Assembly: GCA_035550055.1 (NCBI GenBank)
Contig: DASZRO010000008.1
Span: 1 to 35,320, forward strand
Length of the DNA: 35,320 nt
DNA from: Mycobacteriales bacterium
Lineage (GTDB): Bacteria > Actinomycetota > Actinomycetes > JAFAQI01
Direction: 5' to 3'
In this document: piece after piece, positions 2,160-19,957 of the stretch
Layout: every line of letters starts with the position of its first letter
Position numbering within the stretch: the stretch's first letter is position 1
The notes under the pieces: model-generated
Told to the model about the DNA's origin: nothing
The model's database searches: none
Seen by the model: only the letters and a program-made list of their open reading frames with translations
Translations under genes and position numbers: made by a program

Positions 2160-2178
2160 GCCGACACCGGGAAGTGGC

Positions 2179-3665: not shown

Positions 3666-4375
3666 GCCGCTCCCCGTCCAGGCCGACCTCCGCCGCAGCG
3701 CGCGGCGGTGCCCCGGCCCAGGAGCGCGAGCTCCGGGCGCAGGGGCGCAAGACCATGCAGCGGCTGCTCGCCGCGGGCCGGTCGGTGTTCGAGGCGCAGG
3801 GCCTGCACAACGCCCGGGTCGACGACATCGTCAAGGCCGCGAAGACCTCCCACGGCACCTTCTACCTGTACTTCTCCAACAAGGAAGACCTGTTCAAGGC
3901 GCTCGCGCTCGACGCGGCAGCCGACATGGAGCGGCTCGCCGCCTCGCTCGGCCCGATCACCCCGGACGAGGAAGGCCGGGAGGCGATCCGGGAGTGGGTC
4001 ACCCAGTTCGTCGACACGTACGCCGCGCACGGCAGCGTGATCCGCGCCCAGACCGAGTGGGAGTTCTCCGACCGCGACCTCGGCAAGCGCGCACACGGCA
4101 CCCTCATCCAGATCTCGGGGGCGCTCGCCGCCCGGATCCACGAGGTCCGTCCGCTCGACGACCACGGCCTGGCCGAAGGGCTCGCCTGCCTGTCGATGCT
4201 GGAACGCTTCAACTACTTCCGGCAGTCGCACCAGGTGGAGGTGTCGCGCGAGGACGCGATCGACACGCTGACCCGTGCGGTGTTCGAGGGCTTCTTCGTG
4301 CCCGACCGCGGTATCGCGCGGCGCCGCGCCCGGACCGTCACCTCGCGGCCGCGCCGGGTCCGCAAAGCCGGCTGA
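3662..4375 (+). CDS. TetR/AcrR family transcriptional regulator embedded in the catabolic operon
   Basis: A 237-residue TetR-type repressor. After a basic, low-complexity N-terminal extension (about residues 1-30) comes the usual DNA-binding domain: RVDDIVKAAKTSHGTFYLYF (about residues 52-71) is the helix-turn-helix with the characteristic T.YxYF motif, then NKEDLF. The remainder is the helical ligand-binding domain. It starts at a GTG that overlaps the VOC stop by four bases and lies in the middle of a same-strand run of catabolic genes, so it probably controls that run in response to a pathway CoA ester or alcohol. There is no separate promoter region for it here; the operator would be upstream of the window or elsewhere. 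C-terminal residues are Arg/Lys-rich. Confidence 0.9.
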   Translation: MSRSPSRPTSAAARGGAPAQERELRAQGRKTMQRLLAAGRSVFEAQGLHNARVDDIVKAAKTSHGTFYLYFSNKEDLFKALALDAAADMERLAASLGPITPDEEGREAIREWVTQFVDTYAAHGSVIRAQTEWEFSDRDLGKRAHGTLIQISGALAARIHEVRPLDDHGLAEGLACLSMLERFNYFRQSHQVEVSREDAIDTLTRAVFEGFFVPDRGIARRRARTVTSRPRRVRKAG

Positions 4376-4400
4376 GCGGGCGTGGGCGAGAATATGCGGC

Positions 4401-5339: not shown

Positions 5340-5370
5340 CCGCAACAGCGCAAACGAAAGGTCACATGTC

Positions 5371-6279
5371 ATGGGTCTGCTCGACGGCAAGGTCGCCATC
5401 GTCACTGGCGCTGGCCGGGGTCTCGGGAGGGCCCACGCCCTGCTCCTCGCCTCGGAAGGCGCCCGGGTCGTGGTCAACGACCTCGGCGGCGAGTGGGACG
5501 GCCAGGGGACGGACAACCGTCCAGCCGCAGAGGTGGTCGAGGAGATCAAGGCGGCCGGTGGCGACGCGGTCGCCAACTACGACAGCTGCTCGAGCTTCAA
5601 GGCCGCCGAGAACCTGATCAGCCAGGCGGTCGACACCTTCGGCGGCCTCGACATCCTCGTCAACAACGCGGGCATCCTGCGCGACAAGATGAGCTACAAC
5701 ATGTCGGAGGAAGACTGGGACTCAGTCATCGACGTACACCTCAAGGGCCACTTCGCCACGACCCACTTCGCCGGCGCCTACTGGCGGTCGCGGTCCAAGG
5801 CCGGTGACGAGGTGTACGGCAGGGTCATCAACACCAGCAGCGAGTCCGGCCTGTTCGGCAACGCCGGCCAGATGAACTACGCCGCCGCGAAGGCGGGCAT
5901 CGTGGCAATGACCTGGGTGACGGCACGCGAGTACGCGAAGATCGGCGTGACGGCCAACGCGATCGCACCCCGCGCGCGTACCCGGATGACCGAGCTCACC
6001 TTCGCGGGCTTCGGCTCCACCGAGGAGGGCGCCTTCGACGCGTTCGCGCCGGAGAACGTCTCCCCCGTGATCGGCTGGCTGGCCAGCCCCGCAGCCGCCG
6101 ACGTGTCCGGCCAGGTGTTCGTCGTGTGGGGCAGCGAGGTGCAGGTCGCCCGCGGCTTCAGCCTCGGCGGCTCGATCGACGCAGGCGGCAAGGCGTGGAC
6201 GGTCGATGGCCTGATCGACGCGGCGCCCACGCTGTTCGCCAAGCACGACTCCGGCGTGCCGCCGTTCCAGCTGCTGTAG
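5371..6279 (+). CDS. short-chain dehydrogenase/reductase resembling the (3R)-hydroxyacyl-CoA dehydrogenase domain of MFE-2
   Basis: A 302-residue NAD(P)-dependent SDR. The cofactor motif TGAGRGLG lies at residues 12-19, NNAG at 98-101, and the catalytic Ser157-Tyr170-Lys174 are all present. The pattern VNDLGG after the second strand and the long C-terminal extension with AP..A resemble the dehydrogenase domain of peroxisomal multifunctional enzyme type 2 and the actinobacterial enzymes that oxidise 3-hydroxyacyl-CoA with bulky side chains. It starts at an ATG at 5371 preceded by AAAGG (5357-5361) as ribosome-binding site, 31 bases after the hydrolase. The acyl-CoA ligase begins 15 bases downstream, which supports a CoA-ester substrate. 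A simple alcohol dehydrogenase role cannot be excluded. Confidence 0.88.
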   Translation: MGLLDGKVAIVTGAGRGLGRAHALLLASEGARVVVNDLGGEWDGQGTDNRPAAEVVEEIKAAGGDAVANYDSCSSFKAAENLISQAVDTFGGLDILVNNAGILRDKMSYNMSEEDWDSVIDVHLKGHFATTHFAGAYWRSRSKAGDEVYGRVINTSSESGLFGNAGQMNYAAAKAGIVAMTWVTAREYAKIGVTANAIAPRARTRMTELTFAGFGSTEEGAFDAFAPENVSPVIGWLASPAAADVSGQVFVVWGSEVQVARGFSLGGSIDAGGKAWTVDGLIDAAPTLFAKHDSGVPPFQLL

Positions 6280-6294
6280 GACGCACCGCTTCAC

Positions 6295-7770
6295 ATGGCG
6301 CTGATTCCCGACCAGCTGCGCTGGGTCGCCGAACGCATCCCGGACGAGGCTGCGTTCGTCGTCGACGGCATCGGCTCCATCACCTACGGCGAGTGGCACG
6401 CGAACTCCTCGCGGCTGGCACACGGCTTGATCGACGCCGGGGTGACGGCCGGGGACCGCGTGGCGGTGGTGCTGCGGCCGGAGGACGGGCTCGCGTTCGT
6501 GCAGACCTACTCGGCGATCCACAAAGCTGGTGGCGTCGCCGTGCCGGTCAACGTCCGCATGGCGGCGAACCTCGTCGGAGGGGTGCTCGAGCACTGCGAA
6601 CCGGCCGTCACCATCGTCGCGCCCGAGCTGGCCCACCTCGCACCGCGCGGGGTGGGCTGGGAGAGCCTGCTCACCGACGACGCCGAGGACGTGCAGGTCG
6701 ATCGTGACCCCGACGACCTCGCGGAGATCCTCTACACGTCGGGCACCACTAGCGCGCCGAAGGGCGTGGCGATCCGGCACAGCAACTCCGCGATGATCAT
6801 CACCGCCGAGCCGGAGTGGACCGGGCGGCCGTGGCTGCACGCCTGCCCGATGTTCACCTTCTCCGGGATGACGTTCGTCTACCAGCCGATGCGCATGGGG
6901 ATGTACACGCTCTACCTGCCGAAGTTCGCCACCGCCGACTGGCTGCGGCTGATCGAGTCAGCCAAGCCGAAGTGCGTGTTCCTCGTCCCGGCGATGGTGG
7001 AGCTGCTGCTCGCCGATCCCGCCATGGCTAGCTCCGACTGGTCGAGCGTGGAGATGGTCTCGGTCGGCTCGGCCCCGATCGCCCCGGCGACCCTGCTCGC
7101 GCTGCAAGAGCTGGTCCCCGACGCGATGGTGACCAACTCGTACTCGATGACCGAGGCAGGGACGGCGTACTTCTTCATGCCGAAGGGCGAGCTCGTGAAG
7201 CGTCCCGGCTCGGTCGGGCTCGCGGTCCCGCCGGCCAAGGTGCGGATCGTGGACGACGAGGACGCCGAGGTCCCGGTCGGCGAGATCGGCAACGTGCAGG
7301 TGAAACCGGCCGGCAAGCTACGCGAGTACTACAAGGTGCCGGCCGAGGCGCAGGAGATGTTCCACCCGGACGGCTGGTTGCGCACCGGCGACCTCGGCAA
7401 GCTCGACGATGACGGCTACCTCTACATCGCGGGCCGGGCCAAGGACGTCATCATCCGCGGTGGGCTCAACATCCACGCCACCGACGTGGAGTCCGCGCTC
7501 TACGAGCACCCGGGCGTGCGCGAGGCGGCCGTCGTGGGCGTCGAGCACCCAGTCCTCGGCGAGGACGTGGTCGGCTTCGTCGTACTCACCGAACCGGGCG
7601 CCGCGACGGTCGAGGACCTGGTCGCGTGGTGCCGGCAGCGGGTCGCCGACTACGCCGCGCCGCGGCGGATCTACCTGGTCGAGGAGTTCCCGAGGAACGC
7701 GACGGGCAAGGTCCTCAAGCGTGAGCTCCAGCACCACCCCCTGCTGAAGACCCCACCCTCCGCTCGATAA
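6295..7770 (+). CDS. acyl-CoA synthetase (AMP-forming, ANL superfamily)
   Basis: A 491-residue ligase that would activate a carboxylic acid with ATP and CoA through an acyl-adenylate. The phosphate-binding loop YTSGTTSAPKG is at 147-157, the A5-like motif NSYSMTEAG is in mid-protein, the hinge region reads GWLRTGDLGKLDDDGYLYIAGRAKD, and the catalytic C-terminal lysine is Lys472 in NATGKVLKREL. Length is somewhat short for long-chain FadD proteins and fits a stand-alone medium-chain, aromatic or steroid/terpenoid-acid ligase. There is no carrier or condensation domain, so it is not an NRPS module. It is the last gene of the leftmost operon, ending 28 bases from the convergent acyl-CoA dehydrogenase. 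It links the oxidising enzymes upstream to the beta-oxidation genes that follow. Confidence 0.92.
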   Translation: MALIPDQLRWVAERIPDEAAFVVDGIGSITYGEWHANSSRLAHGLIDAGVTAGDRVAVVLRPEDGLAFVQTYSAIHKAGGVAVPVNVRMAANLVGGVLEHCEPAVTIVAPELAHLAPRGVGWESLLTDDAEDVQVDRDPDDLAEILYTSGTTSAPKGVAIRHSNSAMIITAEPEWTGRPWLHACPMFTFSGMTFVYQPMRMGMYTLYLPKFATADWLRLIESAKPKCVFLVPAMVELLLADPAMASSDWSSVEMVSVGSAPIAPATLLALQELVPDAMVTNSYSMTEAGTAYFFMPKGELVKRPGSVGLAVPPAKVRIVDDEDAEVPVGEIGNVQVKPAGKLREYYKVPAEAQEMFHPDGWLRTGDLGKLDDDGYLYIAGRAKDVIIRGGLNIHATDVESALYEHPGVREAAVVGVEHPVLGEDVVGFVVLTEPGAATVEDLVAWCRQRVADYAAPRRIYLVEEFPRNATGKVLKRELQHHPLLKTPPSAR

Positions 7771-7798
7771 CGACACCTACCCGTCGGGCGCTGCGCTG

Positions 7799-8902
7799 TC
7801 AGGCGGGGATTGTGCCAAGGATGAGATCGGCGACGCGGTGGCGTTGCCAGCCTTGCTTGCCGAGCATGAGGTCGGTGGCCTTGGCCCGCTTGTAGTAGAA
7901 GTGCGCGGGGCACTCCCAGGTGAACCCGACCGCGCCATGGATCTGGATGCTCGTGCTGGTCACCGCGATCGCCGCCTCGGGTGCGTACGACTTGGCCATG
8001 CTCGCCGCCAGCTCGCGGTCGTCGTCATCGACGTCGGAGCACCAGGCGGCGTAATGGGTGATGACGCGCGCGAGGGTGAGCTCCTGCAGCATCTCCGCGG
8101 CCAGGTGCTTCACCGCCTGGAACGTCCCGATCGGGCGGCCGAACTGCACCCGCGCCTTGGAGTACTCGGCCGCGAGCTCGAAGGTGGCTTCCGACGCCCC
8201 GATCAGCTCGGCACAGAGCATCACCGCCGCGTCGTCGACGATGCGCCGCAAGAGCCCGGTCTGGTCGCCCGCGGGACCGAGCCGCCGGGCGGTCGTGCCG
8301 GACATTGCGAGCCGCCCGAGCTGCCGCGTCGGGTCGAGACCGGGGACCGGCTCGATGTCCGCACCCTCGACCAGGAAACCTGCGAGCCCGTCGCCGTCGT
8401 GCGCGACGACGATCACCCAGTCCGCGGTGGGCCCGTCCGCCACGGCCGGTTTGAGCCCGTCGAGGACCCATCCGCCGCCGTCCCTGGTCGCCCGGGTGCG
8501 TACCGACACGAGCGGGTCACCGGCGACCGCCATCTCCTCGACCGCGACCGTCCCCCGCTTCGCGCCCGACGCAAGGTCGGCGAGCAGCTCGTCGGCGCCG
8601 AGCCGCAGGGCCGCCGATGTCGCGAACACCGCCGACGAGAAGTACGGGCCCGGCAGCGGGACCCGGCCCATCTCCTCGCAGACGACCGTCATGTCGACCA
8701 GGCCGAGGCCGAGCCCGCCGTGCTCCTCCGGGATCAGCAGGCCGGGCCAGCCGAGGTCGGCGATCTGCCGCCACAGCCCGTCGGGCATCCGGCCGCCCTC
8801 GCCCACCATCGCAAGCATCTCACCCGCCGGGACCATGCCCGCGAGGGCATCCCGGACAGCCTCGCGGAGGGCCTTCTGGTCGTCGTTGAAGTCGAAGTCC
8901 AC
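7799..8902 (-). CDS. acyl-CoA dehydrogenase (FadE-like, small-subunit type)
   Basis: A 367-residue flavoprotein of the acyl-CoA dehydrogenase family that would introduce the alpha-beta double bond in an acyl-CoA. Near the N-terminus EHGGLGLG is typical; near the C-terminus are RVQFGRPIGTFQAVKH and HGAVGFTWECPAHFYYKRA, patterns characteristic of FadE partners that form heteromers in actinobacteria. I chose the GTG at 8902 because the protein then begins directly with the conserved DFDFNDDQKALRE and AGGA sits about 10 bases upstream. A longer frame reaches 8968 but runs through an operator-like dyad and adds unrelated residues. It is divergent from another acyl-CoA dehydrogenase at 8989. No Glu is seen in the classical C-terminal catalytic position, so it may need a partner subunit. 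Confidence 0.9.
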   Translation of the reverse strand: MDFDFNDDQKALREAVRDALAGMVPAGEMLAMVGEGGRMPDGLWRQIADLGWPGLLIPEEHGGLGLGLVDMTVVCEEMGRVPLPGPYFSSAVFATSAALRLGADELLADLASGAKRGTVAVEEMAVAGDPLVSVRTRATRDGGGWVLDGLKPAVADGPTADWVIVVAHDGDGLAGFLVEGADIEPVPGLDPTRQLGRLAMSGTTARRLGPAGDQTGLLRRIVDDAAVMLCAELIGASEATFELAAEYSKARVQFGRPIGTFQAVKHLAAEMLQELTLARVITHYAAWCSDVDDDDRELAASMAKSYAPEAAIAVTSTSIQIHGAVGFTWECPAHFYYKRAKATDLMLGKQGWQRHRVADLILGTIPA

Positions 8903-8926
8903 GCCGACATCCTGCGGGTTCGACAA

Positions 8927-8946
8927 CCCTGACGCAAATGTCAGGG
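8927..8946. promoter_or_regulatory. operator-like perfect dyad, copy 1
   Basis: CCCTGAC-GCAAAT-GTCAGGG is a perfect 7-bp inverted repeat with a 6-base spacer. It lies between the divergent acyl-CoA dehydrogenase genes, 24 bases from the GTG at 8902 and 42 bases from the ATG at 8989. The same core, CCTGAC-N6-GTCAGG, recurs at 15423 and 19098, also between divergent genes. Position and symmetry fit a dimeric repressor such as a TetR-type protein. A terminator is unlikely in a divergent gap, and there is no T-run. Confidence 0.75.
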
Positions 8947-8988
8947 AACGCTGCCGGCTGCACCCCACGGCGCGATAGGTTCGGCACC

Positions 8989-10182
8989 ATGGATTTCGCG
9001 TACACGCCCGAGGACGAGGCGTTCCGCACCGAGCTGCGGGAGTGGCTCGAGAAGAACCTCGCGGCCTTCGACGAGCAGCCGATCCCCGAGGTGCCGGGGA
9101 TGACCAAGCTGTACGCGAAGCGGCAGGCCTGGCAGAAGGTCATGGCCGCCGGCGGCTGGGCCGCCATCAACTGGCCCAAGGAGCTCGGGGGCCGCGAGGC
9201 GACCCTGATGCAGAACGTCATCTACTCCCAGGAGATGGCGAAGGCGAAGGCGCCGGGCATCTTCAACACCAATGGCATCTGGCAGATCGGCCCGATGATC
9301 ATCCGCTGGGGCACCCAGGAGCAGAAGGACCGCTGGCTGCACGGCATCCTCTACGCCGACGAGCACTGGTGCCAGGGGTTCTCCGAGCCCGAGGCCGGCT
9401 CCGACCTGGCCAACCTGCGGCTGCTCGCGATCCGCGACGGCGATGACTACGTCCTCGACGGCCAGAAGATCTGGATCACCACCGCGCACATCGCCAAGTG
9501 GGGCCTGTTCCTGGTGCGCACCGACCCGACGGCGATGGAGCGCGGCGCCAAGCACGACGGCATCACCGCGTTGATCGTCGACATGGAGACCCCGGGCATC
9601 ACCGCGACACCGATCACCGACATCGTCGGCGAGGACTCGTTCTGCCTCGTGACCTTCGACCAGGCCCGCATCCCCGCCGACTTCTCGCGGCTGGGCAACG
9701 AGGGCGAAGGCTGGATGGTCGCGATGGGCACCCTGACCAACGAACGGGTCGGTACGGCGGGGCTGTCGATCACCATGAAGTCCGAGCTCGACCGCGCCGT
9801 GGACTGGGCGCGCGAGAACAACCCGGGCGCTCTCGCCGACCCGGACCTGCGGGACCGGCTGGCGCGGGCGTACACCCAGATCGAGATGACCAGACTGCTC
9901 AACATGCGGGCGCTGTCGAAGGTGCTCAAGGGCGAGAAGGGCTGGCCAGAGGTCCAGATCGCCAAGCTCCAGTGGAGCCATCTCGCCCAGACCCTCGCCG
10001 CGCTGCAGGTGGACCTGCTGGGTACGGCGGCACTGCTGGCGCGAGGCGGGCCGGATGCGGTCGACAAGGGCAACTGGTCGCGGCTGTACAGCTACCAGCG
10101 CTACACCTCGATCGGCGCCGGCACCACGCAGGTGCAGAAGAACATCATCGCCGACCGCGCGATCAAGCTGCCACGCAAGTGA
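8989..10182 (+). CDS. acyl-CoA dehydrogenase (FadE-like, large-subunit type)
   Basis: A 397-residue flavin-dependent acyl-CoA dehydrogenase. QGFSEPEAGSDLANLR in the beta-domain and GQKIWITTAHIAKW are the FAD-contacting signatures; NERVGTAG precedes the C-terminal helical domain. At the site where short- and medium-chain enzymes carry the catalytic Glu (YEGT), this protein reads GAGTTQVQKN, so the base is missing or supplied from elsewhere. This is common in FadE proteins working as heterotetramers. The ATG at 8989 gives a normal N-terminus (MDFAYTPEDEAF); TAGGTT at 8976-8981 could be a -10 element, making the message leaderless or nearly so. It is divergent from the FadE gene at 8902 with the dyad between them, and is followed 15 bases later by an SDR. 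Confidence 0.92.
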   Translation: MDFAYTPEDEAFRTELREWLEKNLAAFDEQPIPEVPGMTKLYAKRQAWQKVMAAGGWAAINWPKELGGREATLMQNVIYSQEMAKAKAPGIFNTNGIWQIGPMIIRWGTQEQKDRWLHGILYADEHWCQGFSEPEAGSDLANLRLLAIRDGDDYVLDGQKIWITTAHIAKWGLFLVRTDPTAMERGAKHDGITALIVDMETPGITATPITDIVGEDSFCLVTFDQARIPADFSRLGNEGEGWMVAMGTLTNERVGTAGLSITMKSELDRAVDWARENNPGALADPDLRDRLARAYTQIEMTRLLNMRALSKVLKGEKGWPEVQIAKLQWSHLAQTLAALQVDLLGTAALLARGGPDAVDKGNWSRLYSYQRYTSIGAGTTQVQKNIIADRAIKLPRK

Positions 10183-10197
10183 CAAGGGGCTGACGTC

Positions 10198-11019
10198 ATG
10201 CCAAAGCCGAAGAACACGCTGCAACTGGCCGGCTCCGCGATCCTCGTCACGGGCGCGTCCACCGGCATCGGCGCCGCGACCGCCCGAGCACTCGGTGCCG
10301 CCGGCGCCCGAGTCGGCCTCGTCGCCCGCCGCAAGGAGCTGCTCGACCAGGTCGCCCAGGAGACCCGCGACGCCGGCGCTCCCGATGTCGAGGTATGGGC
10401 CGCGGACCTTTCCGACTTGCCGCTTGCCGAGAAGGTCGCCCTCGAGGCGTGGCAGCGCTTCGGTGCGATCGACGGGCTGGTCAACAACGCCGGCGCGCCG
10501 AAGCGCAAGCACGTCACCCGGCTGACCGCGCAAGAGGTCGAAGAGATCATGACGCTCAACTACTTCTCACCGGTCCGGATGACGCTCGCGCTCCTGCCGT
10601 TGATGCGAGAGCGCGGGAGCGGGGTCGTCGTCAACGTGGCGAGCCTCGCGGGCCGCGTCGCGCCGCCGCGGGAGTCGGCGTACGCCGGCAGCAAGTTCGC
10701 GCTCAACGGCTTCAGCGAGGTCATGGCGGTCGACCTCTACGAGGAGAACATCCACGTCCGCGCGATCCAGCCGGGACCCATCGAGACCTCGATCTGGGGC
10801 GACGTGCCCGGCAACGAAAAGGCGGCGTACGACGGAGAGTTCTTCCCGCCGGAGGACTGCGCGGCCGCGATCCTCGACGCGCTGACCGGCGATGGCTTCG
10901 AGCGCTACATCCCCGAGTCGCTCGGCGACGTCGTGAAGCTGAAGGCGCAGGACGTCGACGGCTTCATCGCCGGCAGCGCGGCCTTCGCCAAGAACCCCGA
11001 AGCCGTCGAGAAGGTCTGA
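10198..11019 (+). CDS. short-chain dehydrogenase/reductase
   Basis: A 273-residue classical SDR. The cofactor motif TGASTGIG is at 18-25, NNAG at 96-99, and the catalytic residues are Ser149, Tyr162 and Lys166. PGPIETSIW follows as in family members with broad hydrophobic substrates. The ATG at 10198 has AAGGGG (10184-10189) at good spacing, and the gene follows the acyl-CoA dehydrogenase by 15 bases, so the two are co-transcribed. It would therefore share the operator at 8927. A role as a hydroxyacyl-CoA or hydroxysteroid dehydrogenase fits the context, but the sequence alone supports only an NAD(P)-dependent oxidoreductase. The following SRPBCC gene is convergent, 15 bases away, with no obvious terminator in the gap. 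Confidence 0.9.
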   Translation: MPKPKNTLQLAGSAILVTGASTGIGAATARALGAAGARVGLVARRKELLDQVAQETRDAGAPDVEVWAADLSDLPLAEKVALEAWQRFGAIDGLVNNAGAPKRKHVTRLTAQEVEEIMTLNYFSPVRMTLALLPLMRERGSGVVVNVASLAGRVAPPRESAYAGSKFALNGFSEVMAVDLYEENIHVRAIQPGPIETSIWGDVPGNEKAAYDGEFFPPEDCAAAILDALTGDGFERYIPESLGDVVKLKAQDVDGFIAGSAAFAKNPEAVEKV

Positions 11020-11034
11020 CCCCTCTCCGCGGTT

Positions 11035-11499
11035 CTAGTGGGCGGCGATCCCCCGGCCGCGCTCACCTGACTCCATCAGGCGGGCGATCTCAGCAACCTC
11101 GGTGGCCACGGACTGGGCGAACCAGCTCTTCGTGGTGAGGTCCCACAACTTGCCGAACGGGCGGCGCATCGCGATCTCCTCGACGTGTCGCACGAACGCC
11201 CCGCCGTCGCGGTCTTCGATCTCGAACCACGCATGCATGTACGCCGCGACGCCGTGCTCGAGGACGACGTCGATCGAGTGCGGCGGCAGCCACCGGTAGC
11301 GGGTGATGACCGAGCCCGGGAACTTGCCCAGGAACTTGCCGTCCTCACGGGCGATCATGCCGTCGTCGGTGTCGGCAAGCTTCGTCACGCCGACCACCTT
11401 GAGGTCGGCCTTCGAGTACTGAGCCGGATCCAGCACGAAATCGAAGATGTCCTGAGCCGTCACGCCGGCGATGAACGCTGAGCCCTCACCTCGGATCAT
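11035..11499 (-). CDS. SRPBCC (START/polyketide-cyclase fold) protein
   Basis: A 154-residue cytoplasmic protein that reads as a helix-grip fold ligand-binding protein. The N-terminal strand is followed by AQDIFDFVLDPAQYSKAD, the usual 'p..vw..l.d...y..w' element. A middle strand series contains FEIEDRDGGAFVRHVEEIAM, and the long C-terminal helix begins near WDLTTKSWFAQSVATEVAEIARLME. Such proteins bind or modify hydrophobic small molecules; no catalytic residues can be assigned. It is transcribed alone, toward the SDR gene and away from the membrane protein at 11553, with 53 bases between the divergent starts. The ATG at 11499 is the only reasonable start. Confidence 0.75.
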   Translation of the reverse strand: MIRGEGSAFIAGVTAQDIFDFVLDPAQYSKADLKVVGVTKLADTDDGMIAREDGKFLGKFPGSVITRYRWLPPHSIDVVLEHGVAAYMHAWFEIEDRDGGAFVRHVEEIAMRRPFGKLWDLTTKSWFAQSVATEVAEIARLMESGERGRGIAAH

Positions 11500-11552
11500 G
11501 CGGGCATCTTGGCACGCGCCGGGGCCTGGCCGGGCTCATCTACGGTGGGCAC

Positions 11553-11954
11553 GTGCCGGTGGCCTTCCAGAACGCCTCACGCAAGCGTGCGGCTGCCGCC
11601 GTCGCGGCGTACGGTGTGGTGCTGGCAGTGATCGCCGGCCTGCTGTTGCCGCCGGTCGCCGTCGTACCGGTGGTGCTGGCCACAGCATGGGCGGTGTGGC
11701 GCAACCTGATCGGTGGCGTGTTCGTCACCGACGATCGGGTGCTCGTCCGCAACCTGTCCCACACGATCCGGCTGCCACGCACCGAGGTCACCGACGTCAC
11801 CGTCATCGCAGGAGCGCACGACACGACCGGCGCGGGATACGTCTGCGTCATCACCGAGGACGGCAGCTGCCACCAGGCGACCGGGCTGCGCCGGGACCCG
11901 CTGCGCGCCGAGGCGTTGGCCGCCGCGATCCGGCAGGCGATCGCGGCGCGCTGA
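11553..11954 (+). CDS. small membrane protein with PH-like domain
   Basis: A 133-residue protein with two hydrophobic segments at about residues 13-33 and 35-48, the second ending in AWAVWRNL. A soluble part follows, GGVFVTDDRVLVRNLSHTIRLPRTEVTDVTV, which has the pattern of bacterial PH-domain membrane proteins (often annotated PH domain-containing protein). It probably sits in the cytoplasmic membrane with the beta-rich part in the cytosol. The start is a GTG at 11553 with only a weak purine-rich upstream sequence. It ends 10 bases from the convergent DUF3224 gene. Function is unknown and nothing ties it to the catabolic genes. Confidence 0.7.
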   Translation: MPVAFQNASRKRAAAAVAAYGVVLAVIAGLLLPPVAVVPVVLATAWAVWRNLIGGVFVTDDRVLVRNLSHTIRLPRTEVTDVTVIAGAHDTTGAGYVCVITEDGSCHQATGLRRDPLRAEALAAAIRQAIAAR

Positions 11955-11964
11955 CCGCGGCGCG

Positions 11965-12345
11965 CTAGCCGAGATCGATCTCGAAGTACGCGCCGTCGTC
12001 GTCGTGCTGGATGCGCGCCGAGCCGGTCCAGCTTGCGAAGTCGCCGGTGCCGGCGTTCGGCACGATGTGCCCGAACCAGGTCGAGGGGTCTGACTCCAGC
12101 CCGCCGTGTTGTACGACGAACGTGCCCTCCTCGCCGGTATCGGTCCGGCCGCGGATCTGCTCCGTCGCGACGTAGGAGCGGGACCCCTCCTCGGTCCCGG
12201 CTGACATGAACAACGTGGTGGCCGACCCCACGATCCCGGAGCTGAACGTCTTGGAGAACACGAGCATCCCGACCCAGTCGGCGTCGAGCCCGCTCGGGGT
12301 GGTCGGCTCGGCCTTCGTCACGGCGAATCGCGCGATCAACGTCAT
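11965..12345 (-). CDS. DUF3224 domain-containing protein
   Basis: A 126-residue protein matching the DUF3224 pattern: a middle FSKTFSSGIVGSATTLFMSAG, then SYVATEQIRGRTDTGEEGTFVVQHGG, and a final IVPNAGTGDFASWTGSARIQ. The family is a small beta-barrel, compared by fold to allene oxide cyclase-like proteins; its biochemical role is not known. There is no signal peptide. Transcription is away from the DUF429 gene, with 44 bases between the two starts, and the ATG at 12345 begins just before the first conserved strand. The protein is full length for the family. Confidence 0.8.
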   Translation of the reverse strand: MTLIARFAVTKAEPTTPSGLDADWVGMLVFSKTFSSGIVGSATTLFMSAGTEEGSRSYVATEQIRGRTDTGEEGTFVVQHGGLESDPSTWFGHIVPNAGTGDFASWTGSARIQHDDDGAYFEIDLG

Positions 12346-12389
12346 GCCCGCATCATGCCCAATCGGCTCACCCTCGCTACCGTGCCGGG

Positions 12390-13166
12390 GTGATCACCGT
12401 CGGCGTGGACCTCGCGGCCGAGCCCAAACGCACGGCGGTCGCGATGCTGGAGTGGGACCACGAGGGGGTCCGCCTGGTCGAGCTGCTCGCCACCGCCGAC
12501 GACGAGCAGATCCTCGAGCTGGCAGTTCAGGCGGACAAGACCGGCATCGACTGCCCACTGGGCTGGTCCGACGACTTCGTCGCGTTCGTCAACGAGCACC
12601 ACGCCGGCAACGTCGCGTCGACGCCGGTCGACGCCGCGGCGCGGGTGCCGCTGCGCTATCGCGCGACCGACCTGTTCCTGATCGAGGAGAAGCTAGGCCG
12701 CCCGCTCAGCGTGTCCTCCGACCTGATCGCCGTCCCGGCGATGCGGGCGGCGGGCCTGCTGGCCGCGATGGCGCGCGCCGGGATCGAGGTCGACCGGGCG
12801 GGGGTGACCGGCGGGGTCGCCGAGACGTATCCGGCGCTCGCGATCCGGCACTGGAAGCTCGACGGCGGCAAGTACAAGGGCGCCGGCAACGAGGGCGGCC
12901 TGTCCGCGATGGCCGACAAGCTGCGCAGGGGCTTCCGCGGCCGGCTCGACCTCGGCGAGCACCGCGCGGCGGTTCGCCGATCCGACGACGCCTTCGACGC
13001 GCTGATGTGCGCACTGGTCGCCCGGGCGACGATGGTCTATCGGGGTACGGCGCAGATCCCGCGCGGGCTGGTGCAGCGCGCCCGGCGGGAAGGTTGGATC
13101 GCCGTACCGACCTGCCGCCTCGACGAGCTCATCGCCCCCGTCGAGTACGACCCCAGCGCCTCGTGA
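12390..13166 (+). CDS. DUF429 domain-containing protein (RNase H-like fold)
   Basis: A 258-residue protein whose N-terminus, ITVGVDLAAEPKRTAVAML, is the first strand of the DUF429 family with the conserved Asp7. This is followed by IDCPLGWS, VSSDLIAVPAMRA, GVAETYPALAIR and SDDAFDALMCALVARA, the remaining conserved blocks. The family is predicted to have an RNase H-like fold with acidic active-site residues, so a nuclease has been suggested, but the function is not established. It starts at a GTG at 12390; the more upstream reading in this frame is poor. It ends 10 bases from the convergent thiolase. No defence, repair or mobile gene is nearby that would specify a role. Confidence 0.8.
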   Translation: MITVGVDLAAEPKRTAVAMLEWDHEGVRLVELLATADDEQILELAVQADKTGIDCPLGWSDDFVAFVNEHHAGNVASTPVDAAARVPLRYRATDLFLIEEKLGRPLSVSSDLIAVPAMRAAGLLAAMARAGIEVDRAGVTGGVAETYPALAIRHWKLDGGKYKGAGNEGGLSAMADKLRRGFRGRLDLGEHRAAVRRSDDAFDALMCALVARATMVYRGTAQIPRGLVQRARREGWIAVPTCRLDELIAPVEYDPSAS

Positions 13167-13176
13167 CAGCCAGGGA

Positions 13177-14355
13177 TCAGGCGAGGCGCTCGATCACTGT
13201 GACGTTGGCCTGACCGCCGCCTTCGCACATCGTCTGCAAGCCGAGCTTGCCGCCGGTGTCCTCGAGGAAGTGGAGCATCGTCGTCATCAGCCGGATGCCC
13301 GAGGCACCGAGCGGGTGACCGATCGCGATCGCGCCGCCACGCGGGTTGAGCTTCTCAGGCTCGGGCTTGAACTCGCGCTCCCACGCCATCGTGATCGACG
13401 CGAACGCCTCGTTGACCTCGATCGCGTCGAAGTCCGCCGTCGTCAGGCCGGTCTTGTCGTAGAGCTTGCGGGTCACCGGGTTCGGCGCGGTCAGCACCCA
13501 CACCGCGGAGTCGGCACCGACCGCGAAGTGGCGAAACGCCGCCCGCGGGCGAAGCCCGAGCTTGTCGGCCATCGCCGGTGAGGCGATCAGCATGGCCGCG
13601 GCGCCGTCGTTCATCTGCGAGGAGTTGCCGGCAGTGATGTCCGGCGCGTCCTCGGGCTTGAAGTGCGCACTCGGCAGTGCCGCCATCTTCTCCGCCGACG
13701 TCTCGTGACGGATCCCCTCGTCGTCGGTCATGACGACGCCGGTGTCGTTGCCCTCCTCGTCACGCAAGGTGATCGGCACGATCTCGCGCTTGAAAGCGCC
13801 GGCCCGCTGCGCCTGCGACGCGCGCCGGTGCGACTCGATGGCGAACGCGTCCATCTCGGCGCGGGTGATACCCCAGTCGTTGGCGATCTTCTGCGCCACC
13901 TCGAACTGCATCTTCAGCTGGTTGTCGCAGGCCGCGATGAACGCCGGGGAGAACGGGCCGGTGCCGCCGCGCGCGTTGGACGCCATCGGCGCCCGCGTCA
14001 TCGACTCCACGCCACAGGCGATCACCAGGTCGTAGGCGCCCGCCATCACTCCCTGCGCGGCGAAGTGGACGGCCTGCTGCGACGAGCCACACTGCCGGTC
14101 CACGGTCGTGGCCGCCACGGTCTGCGGCAGGCCCGCCGCCACCCAGGCGTTGCGGGTCACGTTGGTGCCCTGCTCGCCACTTTGCGTCACGCACCCGCCG
14201 ATGACGTCGTCGACCGTCGCGGGGTCGATGCCGTTGCGTTCGACGAGCGCGGACAGGACGTGCCCGAGCAGGTCCGTCGGGTGCCAGCCGGCCAGCGCCC
14301 CCTTGCGCTTGCCGATCGGCGTACGGATCGCGTCGAGGATGACCGCCTCGCCCAT
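13177..14355 (-). CDS. thiolase (acetyl-CoA C-acyltransferase)
   Basis: A 392-residue catalytic thiolase that cleaves 3-ketoacyl-CoA with CoA, or condenses two acyl-CoAs. The nucleophilic Cys89 lies in DRQCGSSQQAVHFAAQG, NEAFA is in mid-C-domain, GHPLGASG carries His347, and CEGGGQAN carries the second catalytic Cys377, so all active-site residues are intact. The ATG at 14355 overlaps the stop of the 2-hydroxyacid dehydrogenase, implying coupled translation; the frame is open further upstream but only as antisense reading of that gene. Being downstream of the hydroxyacid dehydrogenase, it probably belongs to the unit controlled by the dyad at 15423. It would perform the last step of the beta-oxidation cycle supported by the acyl-CoA dehydrogenases and hydratase around it. 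Confidence 0.93.
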   Translation of the reverse strand: MGEAVILDAIRTPIGKRKGALAGWHPTDLLGHVLSALVERNGIDPATVDDVIGGCVTQSGEQGTNVTRNAWVAAGLPQTVAATTVDRQCGSSQQAVHFAAQGVMAGAYDLVIACGVESMTRAPMASNARGGTGPFSPAFIAACDNQLKMQFEVAQKIANDWGITRAEMDAFAIESHRRASQAQRAGAFKREIVPITLRDEEGNDTGVVMTDDEGIRHETSAEKMAALPSAHFKPEDAPDITAGNSSQMNDGAAAMLIASPAMADKLGLRPRAAFRHFAVGADSAVWVLTAPNPVTRKLYDKTGLTTADFDAIEVNEAFASITMAWEREFKPEPEKLNPRGGAIAIGHPLGASGIRLMTTMLHFLEDTGGKLGLQTMCEGGGQANVTVIERLA

Positions 14356-15329
14356 CACAGCACCTCCGGGTTGACGCAGTTCGTCGGCTTCTCGCCATTC
14401 AAGACCGCCTGGATGCCCCTGGCGATCAGCAGCGAGTGGTTTGCCTCGGTGTCGTAGGTCGCGCCGCCGATGTGCGGGGTCAGGACGACGTTCTGCAGCG
14501 CGGCGAGATCGCTCGTCGGGTCGAGCCACTCATGGTCGAAGTGATCCAGCCCGGCGCCGCCGAGGTGGCCCGACTTCAGCGCCTCGACCATCGCGTCGGT
14601 GTCGTGCAGCGCGGCGCGGGCGGCGTTGAGGTAGAGGGCGCCGGGCTTCATCGCGGCGAACTCGTCCGCGCCGATCATGCCGCGGGTCGAGTCGAGCACG
14701 GGTGCGTGCATCGACACGATGTCGGCCTCGGCGAGCAGGTTTCCGAGCGAGTACGTCGCCTCCGCGACATAAGGGTCGTAGGCGATCACCTTCATGCCCA
14801 GCCCCTGCAACCGCCACTCGAGGGCTCGGGCGACGGCGCCGTAGCCGACCAGCCCGACCGTCTTGCCCGCCAGCTCCCACGCCCGGAAACGCTGGTACGG
14901 AATGGTCCCGTCACGGTAGATGTCGCCCTGCCGGCACTCCTTGTCCGCGACGACGACACCGCGCGCCACGGCGAACAGCAACGCGACGCAGATCTCCGCG
15001 ACGCCGTCGGCGTTGCGGCCGGGTGCGCGCAACACCGGGATCCCGGCCTTGGTGGCGGCCTCGACGTCGACGTTGTTGGGGTCGCCGCGGGTGCAGCCGA
15101 TCACCTTCAGCGGCTGCTCCATGACCGGACCGTTGACGTTGTCCGACTCGCACACCAGCACGGTCGCACCGACTTCGGCGAGCTTCGCCGCGAGGTCCTC
15201 AGCCTTGTAGAGCTTGACCGGCTGCTGCTCGATCCACGGCTCGTAGACAATGTCGCACAACGACTCCAGGATCTCCTTGCCTTCGCCACGCAGCGGCGCG
15301 AGCACAAGGGCACGTGGACGGTCGGGCAT
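14355..15329 (-). CDS. D-2-hydroxyacid dehydrogenase (phosphoglycerate dehydrogenase-like)
   Basis: A 324-residue NAD-dependent dehydrogenase of the D-isomer-specific 2-hydroxyacid family. The Rossmann motif is GLVGYGAVARAL (159-170), followed by YDPY. The catalytic triad is Arg238 (NAARAAL), Glu267 (GLDHFDHE) and His286 (TPHIGG), matching the Arg-Glu-His order of phosphoglycerate dehydrogenase. There is no C-terminal ACT domain, so it is a catabolic or short form. I chose the ATG at 15329 because GAGGGAGG lies just upstream and the protein then begins with the expected MPDRPRALVL; the frame continues to 15386 without homology. It is the first gene of a unit with the thiolase and is divergent from the FGGY kinase, with a regulatory dyad between. 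The substrate is probably a sugar-derived 2-hydroxy or 2-keto acid. Confidence 0.88.
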   Translation of the reverse strand: MPDRPRALVLAPLRGEGKEILESLCDIVYEPWIEQQPVKLYKAEDLAAKLAEVGATVLVCESDNVNGPVMEQPLKVIGCTRGDPNNVDVEAATKAGIPVLRAPGRNADGVAEICVALLFAVARGVVVADKECRQGDIYRDGTIPYQRFRAWELAGKTVGLVGYGAVARALEWRLQGLGMKVIAYDPYVAEATYSLGNLLAEADIVSMHAPVLDSTRGMIGADEFAAMKPGALYLNAARAALHDTDAMVEALKSGHLGGAGLDHFDHEWLDPTSDLAALQNVVLTPHIGGATYDTEANHSLLIARGIQAVLNGEKPTNCVNPEVL

Positions 15330-15422
15330 CGGGCCTCCCTCACGGAGCACAACGCGGGTGAGGCTCCAGTGATGCCTCCCCATCACACCCCGGGGGGCGC
15401 TACGTTCAGAGTATCGGGAAAC

Positions 15423-15440
15423 CCTGACGCGCGTGTCAGG
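15423..15440. promoter_or_regulatory. operator-like perfect dyad, copy 2
   Basis: CCTGAC-GCGCGT-GTCAGG, a perfect 6-bp inverted repeat with a 6-base spacer. It lies 26 bases upstream of the FGGY kinase start (15467) and 93 bases from the divergent hydroxyacid dehydrogenase start (15329). The core is identical to the dyads at 8927 and 19098. The spacer GCGCGT differs from the other two, so only the arms are conserved, as expected for recognition by a dimeric protein. Confidence 0.75.
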
Positions 15441-15466
15441 TCCGGGCGTACGAAGGGTGGGCGTCG

Positions 15467-16780
15467 GTGTCGTCGGGGATCACGGTCGGGATCGACATCG
15501 GCACCACCTCCGTCAAGGCGCTCGCGGTCGACGGCGATGGCACGATCGTCGCCCGCGCCCGGGTCCCCCACGACATCCACGCGCCGTCGGTCGACGTCTT
15601 CGAGCACGACGCGAAGCAGGCGTGGGTGGACGGACCGCGCAGAGCGCTCGACGAGCTCGCGGTGGCCGACTTCGACGGGCTCGCGATCGCGACCATGGTG
15701 CCGAGCTTCACCGCGGTGGACGAGTCCGGTACGCCGTACACCCCGGGCCTGCTCTACGGCGACCACCGCGGCCGAGCGGGACGCAACGAGGCGGACCTGC
15801 TCAACTCGCGAGAGTTCCGCTCGATGCTGGAGTGGACCGCCAAGCAGGCGCCCGGCGCCCACGGGTACTGGACCGCACCGGCGGTCGCGGCCGCAGCGCT
15901 CGGCGGAGTGGCCGCGGTCGACTACGGCACCGCCTTCGCCCTCGCGCCGCTGTGGGACGGGGTGTGGCAGGCCGACCCGCTGGCCGAGCTCGGGATCACC
16001 CCGGAACAGCTCCCGGTCGTGGTCGCCGACGACACGGTCACGGGCACGATCAGGGGCGCCGCGAGCGGGGCCGGGATGGCTGACGCGTGGGCCGAGGCGA
16101 CCGTCGCCGGGATCAACTCCCCCGGCGACGTCATGGTGATCTGCGGTACGACGCTGATCGTGTGGTGCGTGCTCGGCGCGCCCGCGATGGTTCCCGGCAT
16201 GTGGTCGATCCCTCACCCGCTCGGCGAGCTGAGCATCCTCGGCGGCGCGAGCAACGCGGGCGGCATGTTCGTCAACTGGGTACGCCGGGCCGTCGGGGCG
16301 CCTACCGCCGCGGTCGACCCGGCCAACGTCCCGCTGTTCGTGCCCTATCTCAAGGGCGAGCGCACGCCGGTGCACGACATCTCGCTGCGCGCGTCGATCC
16401 ACGGGCTCGACATCAGCCACGACGGCGGCGCGATCATGCGCGCGGCGTACGAGGCGTCGGCGTTCGTCGCCCGGCGACTCATCGAACTCAGCGCAGTGCC
16501 GAAGACCCGGATCGTCGCGAGCGGCGGCGGCACCCACGACGAGCTGTGGATGCAGGCGCTCGCCGACTGCACCGGTCTTGCGGTCGACCTCGTCGCCGTC
16601 CCCGAAGGGGCCGCGCTCGGGGCGGCCTGGCATGCGCGGGTGCTGGCCGGTCTCGACGCGAAGTCGGACGTGGTGCGGTGGTCGGGACACGGCTGCCGCT
16701 TCGAGCCGGCCCCGGCGTGGTCCGGGCCGTGCGAGGAGCGCTACCAACGATGGCTCGCGCTGGCCGCGGTGGGGCACTGA
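15467..16780 (+). CDS. FGGY-family carbohydrate kinase
   Basis: A 437-residue ATP-dependent sugar or polyol kinase. The N-terminal phosphate-binding motif GIDIGTTSVKAL is at about 8-19. The probable catalytic Asp is in LLYGDHRG, and the C-terminal ATP site includes ASGGGTHDELWMQALADCTG followed by EGAALGAAW. It is shorter than many FGGY kinases (about 500 residues), chiefly in the C-terminal part, but both actin-like domains are present. The start is a GTG at 15467 with AAGGGTGG upstream at 15453-15460. It is divergent from a 2-hydroxyacid dehydrogenase/thiolase unit and shares its regulatory gap. The substrate (xylulose-, glycerol- or autoinducer-2-like) cannot be told. Its presence among fatty-acid-type genes is unusual. 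Confidence 0.85.
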   Translation: MSSGITVGIDIGTTSVKALAVDGDGTIVARARVPHDIHAPSVDVFEHDAKQAWVDGPRRALDELAVADFDGLAIATMVPSFTAVDESGTPYTPGLLYGDHRGRAGRNEADLLNSREFRSMLEWTAKQAPGAHGYWTAPAVAAAALGGVAAVDYGTAFALAPLWDGVWQADPLAELGITPEQLPVVVADDTVTGTIRGAASGAGMADAWAEATVAGINSPGDVMVICGTTLIVWCVLGAPAMVPGMWSIPHPLGELSILGGASNAGGMFVNWVRRAVGAPTAAVDPANVPLFVPYLKGERTPVHDISLRASIHGLDISHDGGAIMRAAYEASAFVARRLIELSAVPKTRIVASGGGTHDELWMQALADCTGLAVDLVAVPEGAALGAAWHARVLAGLDAKSDVVRWSGHGCRFEPAPAWSGPCEERYQRWLALAAVGH

Positions 16781-16889
16781 GTCTGCTGCAGGCGATGCTG
16801 GACAACCTCGCGCGACTGCGGGAGCAGGGCCTCGACCTCATCGAGGACTAGAGCGGATGTGCCATCCGCCAGGTCGGGGGGCCAGGGCC

Positions 16890-16907
16890 AGGTCAGGTCA
16901 GGTCAGG
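16890..16907. repeat. short tandem repeat of AGGTC
   Basis: Three consecutive copies of AGGTC plus a partial AGG. They lie in the gap between the convergent FGGY kinase and the fused acyl-CoA dehydrogenase, and overlap the TGA of the latter (16903-16905 on the plus strand). Another AGGTC stands at 16871. The repeat is probably a replication-slippage product; the gap shows no stem-loop with a T-run. Confidence 0.6.
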
Positions 16908-19080
16908 CGTCGCGGGGCAGGCCGAGCAGTCGCTCGGCGATGACGTTGCGCTGCACCTCGCTGGTGCCGCCCGCGATCGTCAGGCAGCGCGTCGCGAGGA
17001 AGCCGGCTCCCCACATGTGCGCGTCGCCGGTCAACGTCGCGCCTTCACCGGCCAGCAGCTGCATCCCGAACTCCTGCACCCGCTGCTCGTGCTCGGCGGC
17101 GAAGAGCTTGCGCAGGCTCGACTCGGAGCCCTTCTCACCGCCCGCGAGGACCCGCATCGTCGAGCGCACGCCGAGCAACGCCAGGGACTGCGCCTCGGCG
17201 ATCAGCTGGCCGGTGTGGTCGAGGGTGACCTGGTCGGCCTCCCGGTGCTCCAGCAGCCGCAGGATGGCCTCGACCCCGACCCCGAAGGCCGATCCGCTCG
17301 CCATCGAGACGCGCTCGTTCGCCAGCGTCGTACGCGCCAGCCGCCAACCGCCGTCGACCTCGCCGACCAGGCAGTCGGCCGGGACGAACACCTTGTCGAG
17401 GAAGACCTCGTTGAACATCGCCTGCCCGGTCAGCTCGCGCAGCGGCCGGATGTCGATCCCCGGGGTCGACATGTCCAGCAGGAAGTAGGAGATCCCGTGA
17501 TGGCGGTCGCCGTCCTTGCCCGCCGACGTGCGCGCCAGCAGGATGCCATGCGTCGCCTGCTTCGCCAAGGATGTCCAGACCTTCTGGCCCGTGATCAGCC
17601 AGCCGCCCTCGGTCGGCTCGGCCTTCGTCGACAGCGAGGCGAGGTCTGACCCCGCGCCCGGCTCGCTGAACAGCTGGCACCAGGTGATCCGGCCGTGGAA
17701 GGTTTCCGGCACGTACTTGGCCACCTGCTCGGCACTGCCGTGCTCGATGATCGTGGGGAGCGCCCACGCCGCGATCGACAGGTGCGCGCGGCGGACCTTC
17801 GCCTTCTTGAACTCCTCGTCGATGACGACCTGCTGGACCGCCGATGCGTCCTTGCCCCACGGCGCCGGCCAGTGCGGCGCGAGGTAGCCGGCGTTGGCGA
17901 TCTCGACCTTGCGGGCCTCGTCGTCCAGACCGTCGAGACTCGCGAGGAACGCGCGCACCTCGCTGCGGTAGTCCTCCGCTTCGGGCGGCAGCTCCACGTC
18001 GAGCCGGCGGCGTACGCCGTCGAGGGCGAGCTTCGCCGCCGCAGTCCGCCAGGCGGTGGTGGGGCCGATCAGCTGGCGCACGCCGACCGCACGCTTGAGA
18101 TAGAGGTGCGCGTCGTGCTCCCAGGTGAAGCCGATGCCGCCGAGCATCTGCACGCAGTCCTTGGCGGCGTGCACCGCACCGTCGAAGGCGATCGCCGCCG
18201 CGGCACAAGCCGCAAGGCGCCCTTCGCCGTCGTGCGCCTCGCTGCGCGCGGCGTCCCACACCGCGGCGCGCATCAGCTCGACCAGGACCAGGAGATCGGC
18301 CGCGCGGTGCTTGATCGCCTGGAACGCCCCGATCGGGCGACCGAACTGCACCCGCTCCTTCGCGTACGCCGAAGCGGTGTCGAGACACCACCCGGCGACG
18401 CCGCACGCCTCGGCGGCGTAGAGGGTCGCGCCGATCGCGTAGGCGTCATGGCTGTCCAGCGACAGCTGGCGCTCGGCCGGGACGACGACGCCAGTGACGT
18501 CGATCTCGGCGAGGCGACGCGTCGCGTCGAAGCTGTCGATCGGCGTGACCGACAGCCCGGCGGTGTCGAGGACGCACCAGACGACCCGGTCGCCGACCTT
18601 GGCCCGCAGTACGACGAGCCTGGCCAGCGCACCGCCGACCACCGGACGACTCACCCCGGACAACGTCAGCCCGTCGGGACCTTCGGTGGCGGCGACCGCC
18701 GGGGCGCCGAGCGCGACCGTCGCGGGCGTCGAGCCGTCGGCCAGGGCGGGCAGCAGCTCCTTGGCGAGCGCCCCGCCCGACCGGGCGATCACCGCCGCCG
18801 CATGAACGGTGGGCAGGTAACCGCCGGGCCCCATCGCCCGGCCCAGCTCCTCGACGACGACCGCTTGTTCGAGCAGCCCGAACCCGGCCCCGCCGTACTC
18901 CTCGGGCAGGTGCAGGCCGAACCAGCCGAGCTCGGCGGCGGGACCCCAGTACGCCGGCAGCTCCGTCTCCGCCGCCGCCTCCAGCGCAGCGCGCGGGGCA
19001 GCCGGCGGACAGTGGCGCACGAGCACGTCACGCGCCGACTCGCGCAGTGCCTCGTGGTCCTCGGTGATCCCGATCGGCAT
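16903..19080 (-). CDS. fused two-domain acyl-CoA dehydrogenase (FadE34-like architecture)
   Basis: A 725-residue protein made of two acyl-CoA dehydrogenase domains in one chain. The N-terminal half (about 1-350) runs from ITEDHEALRESARDVL through EEYGGAGFG and RVQFGRPIGAFQAIKH to GGIGFTWEHDAHLYLKRA. The C-terminal half (about 370-725) contains CQLFSEPGAGSDLASL, GQKVWTSLAKQATHG, LANERVSMASG and IAGGTSEVQRNVIAERLL. At the classical catalytic Glu position the C-terminal half has Gly. This arrangement is known from the actinobacterial steroid-side-chain enzyme FadE34 (ChsE3), in which a single chain replaces the two subunits of other FadE heteromers; orthology is not claimed. The ATG at 19080 has GGGAGAG just upstream. 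It is divergent from the enoyl-CoA hydratase with a dyad 17 bases from its start. Confidence 0.92.
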   Translation of the reverse strand: MPIGITEDHEALRESARDVLVRHCPPAAPRAALEAAAETELPAYWGPAAELGWFGLHLPEEYGGAGFGLLEQAVVVEELGRAMGPGGYLPTVHAAAVIARSGGALAKELLPALADGSTPATVALGAPAVAATEGPDGLTLSGVSRPVVGGALARLVVLRAKVGDRVVWCVLDTAGLSVTPIDSFDATRRLAEIDVTGVVVPAERQLSLDSHDAYAIGATLYAAEACGVAGWCLDTASAYAKERVQFGRPIGAFQAIKHRAADLLVLVELMRAAVWDAARSEAHDGEGRLAACAAAAIAFDGAVHAAKDCVQMLGGIGFTWEHDAHLYLKRAVGVRQLIGPTTAWRTAAAKLALDGVRRRLDVELPPEAEDYRSEVRAFLASLDGLDDEARKVEIANAGYLAPHWPAPWGKDASAVQQVVIDEEFKKAKVRRAHLSIAAWALPTIIEHGSAEQVAKYVPETFHGRITWCQLFSEPGAGSDLASLSTKAEPTEGGWLITGQKVWTSLAKQATHGILLARTSAGKDGDRHHGISYFLLDMSTPGIDIRPLRELTGQAMFNEVFLDKVFVPADCLVGEVDGGWRLARTTLANERVSMASGSAFGVGVEAILRLLEHREADQVTLDHTGQLIAEAQSLALLGVRSTMRVLAGGEKGSESSLRKLFAAEHEQRVQEFGMQLLAGEGATLTGDAHMWGAGFLATRCLTIAGGTSEVQRNVIAERLLGLPRDA

Positions 19081-19097
19081 GACGCTCTCTCCCACTC

Positions 19098-19115
19098 CCT
19101 GACACCGACGTCAGG
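19098..19115. promoter_or_regulatory. operator-like perfect dyad, copy 3
   Basis: CCTGAC-ACCGAC-GTCAGG, a perfect 6-bp inverted repeat with a 6-base spacer, 17 bases upstream of the fused acyl-CoA dehydrogenase start (19080) and 74 bases from the divergent enoyl-CoA hydratase start (19190). The arms are identical to those at 8927 and 15423. This is the copy nearest to a start codon and should overlap the promoter or transcription start of the dehydrogenase. Confidence 0.75.
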
Positions 19116-19189: not shown

Positions 19190-19957
19190 GTGAGCGACGA
19201 GGTCCTGACCGAACGGCGCGACAACGTGCTGATCATCACGCTGAACCGGCCTGAGGCGCGCAACGCCGTGAACGAGGGCCTGGCAAAGGGCGTCGCTGCC
19301 GCGATCGACGAGCTCGACGGAGACGACAGCCTGTTCGTCGGGATCATCACCGGCGCTGGCGGCACGTTCTGCTCCGGGATGGACCTCAAGGGGTTCCTCA
19401 GAGGTGAGAATCCGACGGTCGACGGCCGCGGCTTCGCCGGCCTGACCGGCGCGCCCCCCAAGACCCCGCTGATCGCCGCCGTCGAGGGCTGGGCGCTGGC
19501 CGGCGGCTGCGAGATCGTGCTCGCCTGCGACTTGATCGTCGCCAGCCGCGAGGCGAAGTTCGGCATTCCCGAGGTCAAGCGCGGCCTGGTCGCCGGCGCG
19601 GGCGGCCTGCTGCGGCTGCCCAAGCGGATCCCGTACCACCTGGCGATGGAATTCGCGATCACCGGCGAGCCGGTCGACGCCGAGACCGCGAAGAGCTACG
19701 GCCTGGTGAACCGGCTGACCGAGCCGGGCAAGGCACTCGACGGCGCGCTCGAGCTCGCCTCGCTCGTGTCGGCCAACGGGCCGCTCGCCGTCGCCGCCAC
19801 GAAGGAGATCGTGCGCCGGGCCTCGTCGGACTGGACCGAGACCGAGGCCTGGCAGAAGCAGGGCGAGATCCTGCCGGCGGTCTTCGCCTCCGAGGACGCC
19901 CGCGAAGGCGCGACGGCGTTCGCCGAGAAGCGGCCGCCGAACTGGAAAGGCCGCTAG
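19190..19957 (+). CDS. enoyl-CoA hydratase/isomerase (crotonase family)
   Basis: A 255-residue crotonase that would hydrate an alpha-beta unsaturated acyl-CoA, the product of the acyl-CoA dehydrogenases nearby. The oxyanion hole is formed by FCSGMDLKG (60-68) and EGWALAGGCEIVLACD (99-114). Both catalytic glutamates of hydratases are present: Glu128 in IPEVKRGLVAGAGG and Glu154 in LAMEFAITGE. This favours true hydratase activity over isomerase or hydrolase activity. The start is a GTG at 19190 with GAGGGG (19179-19184) in good position. It is divergent from the fused acyl-CoA dehydrogenase across a 109-base gap with at least one operator-like dyad. No hydroxyacyl-CoA dehydrogenase domain is fused to it. 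Confidence 0.93.
   Translation: MSDEVLTERRDNVLIITLNRPEARNAVNEGLAKGVAAAIDELDGDDSLFVGIITGAGGTFCSGMDLKGFLRGENPTVDGRGFAGLTGAPPKTPLIAAVEGWALAGGCEIVLACDLIVASREAKFGIPEVKRGLVAGAGGLLRLPKRIPYHLAMEFAITGEPVDAETAKSYGLVNRLTEPGKALDGALELASLVSANGPLAVAATKEIVRRASSDWTETEAWQKQGEILPAVFASEDAREGATAFAEKRPPNWKGR

Follow-up and report, generated by a model that had tools for sequence, protein, structure and literature searches.

Three perfect inverted repeats with identical CCTGAC and GTCAGG arms occupy gaps between divergent genes in a 35,320-nucleotide stretch of actinobacterial DNA (the window), which is the entire contig C8 of a 3.5-Mb genome. Among named relatives, metagenome-assembled genomes of Frankiaceae and Frankiales stand closest to it. 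The repeats raise the question of which protein reads them and which genes it controls. An earlier note on this DNA had taken them for the operators of one dimeric repressor governing a local regulon, and had suggested that the cognate regulator may lie outside the window. We conclude that the dyads are, with high probability, operators of a TetR-family protein encoded at 3662–4375, a reading in which we infer the binding, the repression and the ligand.

Results

Three dyads in divergent gaps

The features of the window referred to below are listed by position and strand.

37–3665, plus strand: GMC oxidoreductase (truncated by the contig end), two zinc alcohol dehydrogenases (ADH) and a glyoxalase-like gene; upstream part of the TetR operon
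3662–4375, plus strand: TetR-family regulator, proposed cognate repressor (TetR_N 1.3e-15; start from orthologues)
4401–7770, plus strand: alpha/beta hydrolase, SDR and acyl-CoA synthetase
4410–4427, no strand: probable weak operator with one mismatch, at the start of the hydrolase gene next after the TetR gene
7799–8926, minus strand: acyl-CoA dehydrogenase (ACAD), small-subunit type
8927–8946, no strand: predicted operator dyad CCCTGAC-GCAAAT-GTCAGGG, between two divergent ACAD genes
8989–11019, plus strand: ACAD, large-subunit type (8989–10182; best PDB match 4x28 chain A), and SDR
13177–15386, minus strand: thiolase and 2-hydroxyacid dehydrogenase (2HADH)
15423–15440, no strand: predicted operator dyad CCTGAC-GCGCGT-GTCAGG, between the 2HADH and FGGY kinase genes
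15467–16780, plus strand: FGGY-family kinase
16903–19095, minus strand: fused (two-domain) ACAD
19098–19115, no strand: predicted operator dyad CCTGAC-ACCGAC-GTCAGG, between the fused ACAD and enoyl-CoA hydratase genes
19190–19957, plus strand: enoyl-CoA hydratase

Checked against the window sequence, all three dyads are exact and lie at the positions first reported for them, each inside its divergent gap; the first spans 8928–8945, or 8927–8946 when an extra C/G pair is included. The nearest start codons, previously placed at 17–26 bases, are indeed found at 25 (ACAD), 26 (FGGY kinase) and 17 bases (fused ACAD), using orthologue-supported starts (VDFDF for the ACAD and MPIGI for the fused ACAD). 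As the earlier note proposed, the sites behave like operators of one dimeric repressor. The description of the spacer as unrelated sequence did not hold, as the spacer has R-Y at both ends in all six exact copies in the genome, its outermost bases being R (position 7) and Y (position 12). The consensus site is CCTGACRYNNRYGTCAGG, with the half-site CCTGACRY, and the spacer is therefore not unrelated sequence. Sites of the 4410–4427 type also mark the start of the hydrolase gene on contig C116 and in genomes G001 and G002, a conservation that is less telling because the site overlaps or abuts coding sequence.

Enrichment, placement and conservation

The exact pattern CCTGAC-N6-GTCAGG occurs six times in the genome versus zero times for the reversed control. 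Under the R/Y spacer rule, exact counts for this genome and for three others of its family were 6, 5, 6 and 3, and the control, run with the looser N6 pattern, gave 0 in each of the four; with one mismatch allowed, the same genomes yielded 15, 16, 14 and 10 sites versus 3, 2, 2 and 2 for the control. Six was the sole enriched spacer length, and the motif was rare across the phylum (11 of 296 genomes). All 20 exact sites of the four genomes lie at gene starts, versus 20% expected (binomial 1e-14), as do 47 of 55 when one-mismatch sites are included, versus 20% of random positions. A site was counted at a start if it fell between −40 and +200 of the start codon, with the expectation taken from random positions in the same DNA; sites were fetched and mapped individually, and starts came from a simple codon-usage script, so that an individual distance may be wrong by a few codons. 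The motif is thus not as frequent inside genes as in promoter regions genome-wide. The regulon cannot be called local, as the earlier note had it: its sites are spread over many contigs and recur in another class.

In four Frankiales genomes, all three gaps of the window still carry the dyad, or at least the inner five positions on both arms. In the ACAD/ACAD gap, the 18 bp are identical in the four genomes save for one G/A difference, while the flanks diverge; the 2HADH/FGGY gap preserves each arm over its inner five bases or more; and the gap at 19098–19115 keeps the inner arms CTGAC and GTCAG with differing spacers. The first two of these gaps bear the dyad in Acidimicrobiia too. The arms are therefore conserved at orthologous gaps of relatives. 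Chance palindromes in G+C-rich DNA could account for the counts at two mismatches, which in the genome of the window stand close to background (213 versus 166) and are too loose to be informative, but the exact-match controls contradict this explanation, and exact counts, placement, conservation and the co-occurrence described below oppose it, leaving it hardly credible.

A TetR gene co-occurs with the motif

The TetR gene is the final gene of a run encoding GMC, ADH, ADH, glyoxalase and TetR proteins. Its start is at 3662, not at the called 3755, as the extra N-terminus is retained in orthologues; this GTG codon overlaps the stop of the preceding gene. The operon promoter is unseen in the window because the window begins within the GMC gene, and the promoter region bears a dyad in the C31 copy of the operon and in the same-genus genome G001, both of which preserve the gene order of 37–3665. 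A different gene precedes the TetR gene in G002 and G003, with a one-mismatch site upstream in G002. Orthologues of at least 66% identity are present in exactly the four family genomes that carry the motif, and none was found in eight family members without motif enrichment. The cognate regulator is thus very probably the TetR encoded at 3662–4375 in the same cluster, and its near-perfect co-occurrence with the motif speaks against a regulator outside the window.

The ADH-TetR gene set is present in up to three copies in the genome, at about 72–90% protein identity (window 939–8926; L018 on C116, 516–8461; and L016 with L114, at the end of C31), reflecting either paralogy or strain mixture.

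Two other TetR proteins were rejected as common regulators. The one adjoining a site in G003 is matched in neither G000 nor G001, and in G002 at just 38%. The second TetR of the window (31210–31803) is without a close orthologue in G001–G003, and its matches are equally weak in motif-free genomes.

Independent loci in Acidimicrobiia

Homology to the TetR alone retrieved 53 non-Frankiales loci, mostly from Acidimicrobiia. These contained 49 motif matches with at most one mismatch, 44 of them near starts, versus 0–2 for permuted-arm palindromes; in 24 such genomes, exact sites numbered 108 versus 1 for the control. In 28 of the 53 loci, the TetR gene has a dyad core no more than 320 bp away. Where the TetR gene follows a same-strand ADH gene, no adjacent site is present, as expected for an operon-embedded gene. 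The dyad thus adjoins the TetR gene in these 28 loci and stands upstream of its operon in G001 and in the C31 copy, the arrangement expected of an autoregulated gene.

Among 119 sampled Acidimicrobiia genomes, 31 carry the TetR, 30 the exact motif and 28 both, where carriers were defined by E at most 1e-35, a cut-off picked after viewing the table. The motif is thus present in 28 of 31 carriers versus 2 of 88 other genomes (Fisher 1.4e-21, a value that reports association and overstates independence because genomes share ancestry), and the sample holds 127 sites versus 2. No exact site was found in three of the 31 carriers.

These data bear on two further explanations. In RNA, the dyads could fold into a 6-bp stem closed by a 6-base loop, and might then act as attenuator or terminator hairpins rather than protein sites. 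However, they sit in divergent gaps just before starts and tolerate either orientation, their spacer is itself symmetric (RYNNRY), they are confined to carriers of one TetR, and within the window no T run follows them; we regard hairpins as highly unlikely. Alternatively, a different regulator travelling with the cluster could bind the dyads while the TetR binds elsewhere. Co-occurrence alone would not distinguish such companions, and the site-adjacent TetR gene of G003 lends the idea some support; yet the dyad follows the TetR of 3662–4375 across classes, into differing neighbourhoods and to a position beside the TetR gene itself, which makes this alternative improbable. The TetR of 3662–4375 remains our preferred regulator.

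Many Acidimicrobiia genomes encode two or more TetR paralogues, which fall into three or more groups of a tree whose deep branches are weakly supported, so that a site in this class may be read by one paralogue or by several. Several paralogous TetR subfamilies might share one operator on which different inducers converge, as a multi-input catabolic switch. This reading, which we hold to be somewhat less probable than even, starts from a DNA-reading segment that stays fixed in both classes while the ligand domains have diverged, and from the presence of at least two copies in most Acidimicrobiia genomes with the TetR.

Several side observations came from the same loci. In seven Acidimicrobiia loci with the TetR after ADH (L149, L153, L161, L164, L165, L166 and L172), GTCAT replaces GTCAG in the right arm; in this group the operator may have evolved in step with the TetR subgroup. 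In Acidimicrobiia, a dyad directly downstream of the TetR gene often precedes a gene for a lipoprotein-like protein with a signal peptide and cysteine (L128, L131, L135, L137, L138, L148 and L154), perhaps an uptake part of the pathway. Two contigs titled as Bifidobacterium breve metagenome-assembled genomes (L139 and L176) encode a TetR of the same type; the titles look wrong because L176 and L177 (Actinobacteria bacterium IMCC26207) have the same adjacent sites.

Fold, ligand and proposed mechanism

The structure model of the TetR shows a confident nine-helix TetR fold (pLDDT 89), with FasR, EthR, PhlH, Bacillus FadR and BkaR as the best fold matches in the PDB. Across 37 TetRs, some as little as 36% identical to the window protein, the DNA-reading segment TSHGTFYLYF does not vary. 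Such constancy is consistent with an operator that has stayed the same, although part of it is selection because the loci had been retrieved through ARVDDIVK, a pattern close by. FasR and FadR are acyl-CoA-responsive. In the mechanism we propose, a TetR dimer would bind CCTGACRYNNRYGTCAGG beside start codons and repress both divergent genes, and would regulate its own gene via the operator of its operon. A pathway intermediate would release it, most likely an acyl-CoA thioester, as suggested by the fold likeness to FasR and FadR and by the presence of acyl-CoA synthetase, dehydrogenases, hydratase and thiolase in the regulon.

Regulon members and substrate

The motif probably defines a dispersed regulon of oxidation and CoA-dependent catabolic genes. 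It comprises GMC dehydrogenase and the corresponding subunit 3, alcohol dehydrogenases, acyl-CoA synthetase, paired and fused ACADs, hydratases and thiolase, as well as 2HADH, FGGY kinase, class II aldolase, amidohydrolases and copper amine oxidase. Among the members that recur elsewhere are the GMC/subunit-3 operon and a crotonase, together with class II aldolase, amidohydrolases and copper amine oxidase; P450 and substrate-binding proteins are likewise tied to the motif. In each of the two same-genus genomes, the copper amine oxidase gene lies well away from the main cluster and has a one-mismatch dyad nine bases before its start (L019, 5763–5780; L101, 4025–4042).

The large ACAD subunit matches 4x28 chain A best (3e-57), followed by 6wy8; the fused ACAD matches 6wy8 chains, and other ACADs score equally well. 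We take 4x28 and 6wy8 to be steroid side-chain enzymes (of the ChsE4-ChsE5 and Tcur3481-Tcur3483 type). The window protein at 33233–34894 resembles lipid-transfer/thiolase proteins at a score below the curated cut-off, and the GMC protein matches FAD glucose and fructose dehydrogenases most closely. Judged from these likenesses, the substrate might be a steroid- or terpenoid-like compound bearing a polyol or sugar-like moiety.

Discussion

To our knowledge, CCTGACRYNNRYGTCAGG is neither the KstR nor the KstR2 motif. The window TetR displays the general traits of TetR regulons, namely a TetR_N domain, an all-helical fold and a predicted palindromic operator, both at target promoters and at the promoter of the regulator itself. 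The KstR and KstR2 regulons of cholesterol catabolism in mycobacteria and relatives are likewise governed by TetR repressors at short palindromic operators (PMC4482099, PMC3920632), and they too are dispersed, CoA-dependent catabolic regulons with heteromeric and fused ACADs. Unlike them, the gene set described here includes an FGGY kinase, 2HADH, class II aldolase and GMC dehydrogenase, and neither KstR nor KstR2 was found among the 60 PDB sequence matches listed for the TetR.

BkaR, a structural neighbour of the window TetR that serves a branched-chain keto-acid operon in mycobacteria, is also an autoregulatory TetR repressor with a palindromic operator in divergent gaps, besides a distant target. 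However, its 16-bp core GTTA(N)T(N4)A(N)TAAC (PMC3920632) is unrelated to the dyad, and the two proteins are about 20% identical. FasR of Mycobacterium tuberculosis and Bacillus FadR, the best or near-best folds, are at about 20% identity as well, and the FasR, Bacillus FadR and MftR equivalogs all scored below the NCBIfam cut-off (37.4 against 200, 29.3 against 330 and 28.5 against 224.9 bits, respectively). Mce3R of Mycobacterium tuberculosis is another TetR-type regulator of lipid-related genes, but differs in being a double-TetR polypeptide with a non-palindromic operator (PMC11667970).

No described site with these arms or the degenerate consensus was found in the literature searched, which lay mostly outside the subscription journals; PMC3398298 has the dyad letters in primers only, and PMC4482099 reports 11 novel mycobacterial TetR motifs in the form of logo images. 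A KstR-like TetR regulon is of a known kind, and the TetR-operator pair is apparently new within the literature searched.

The finding provides a regulator, a predicted operator and a target list for catabolic genes of Frankiales and Acidimicrobiia, represented here mostly by metagenome-assembled genomes. The motif links scattered genes (GMC dehydrogenase, copper amine oxidase, amidohydrolases, P450 and substrate-binding proteins) into one circuit, and the predicted regulator-operator pair has been retained between two actinobacterial classes at 37–51% protein identity.
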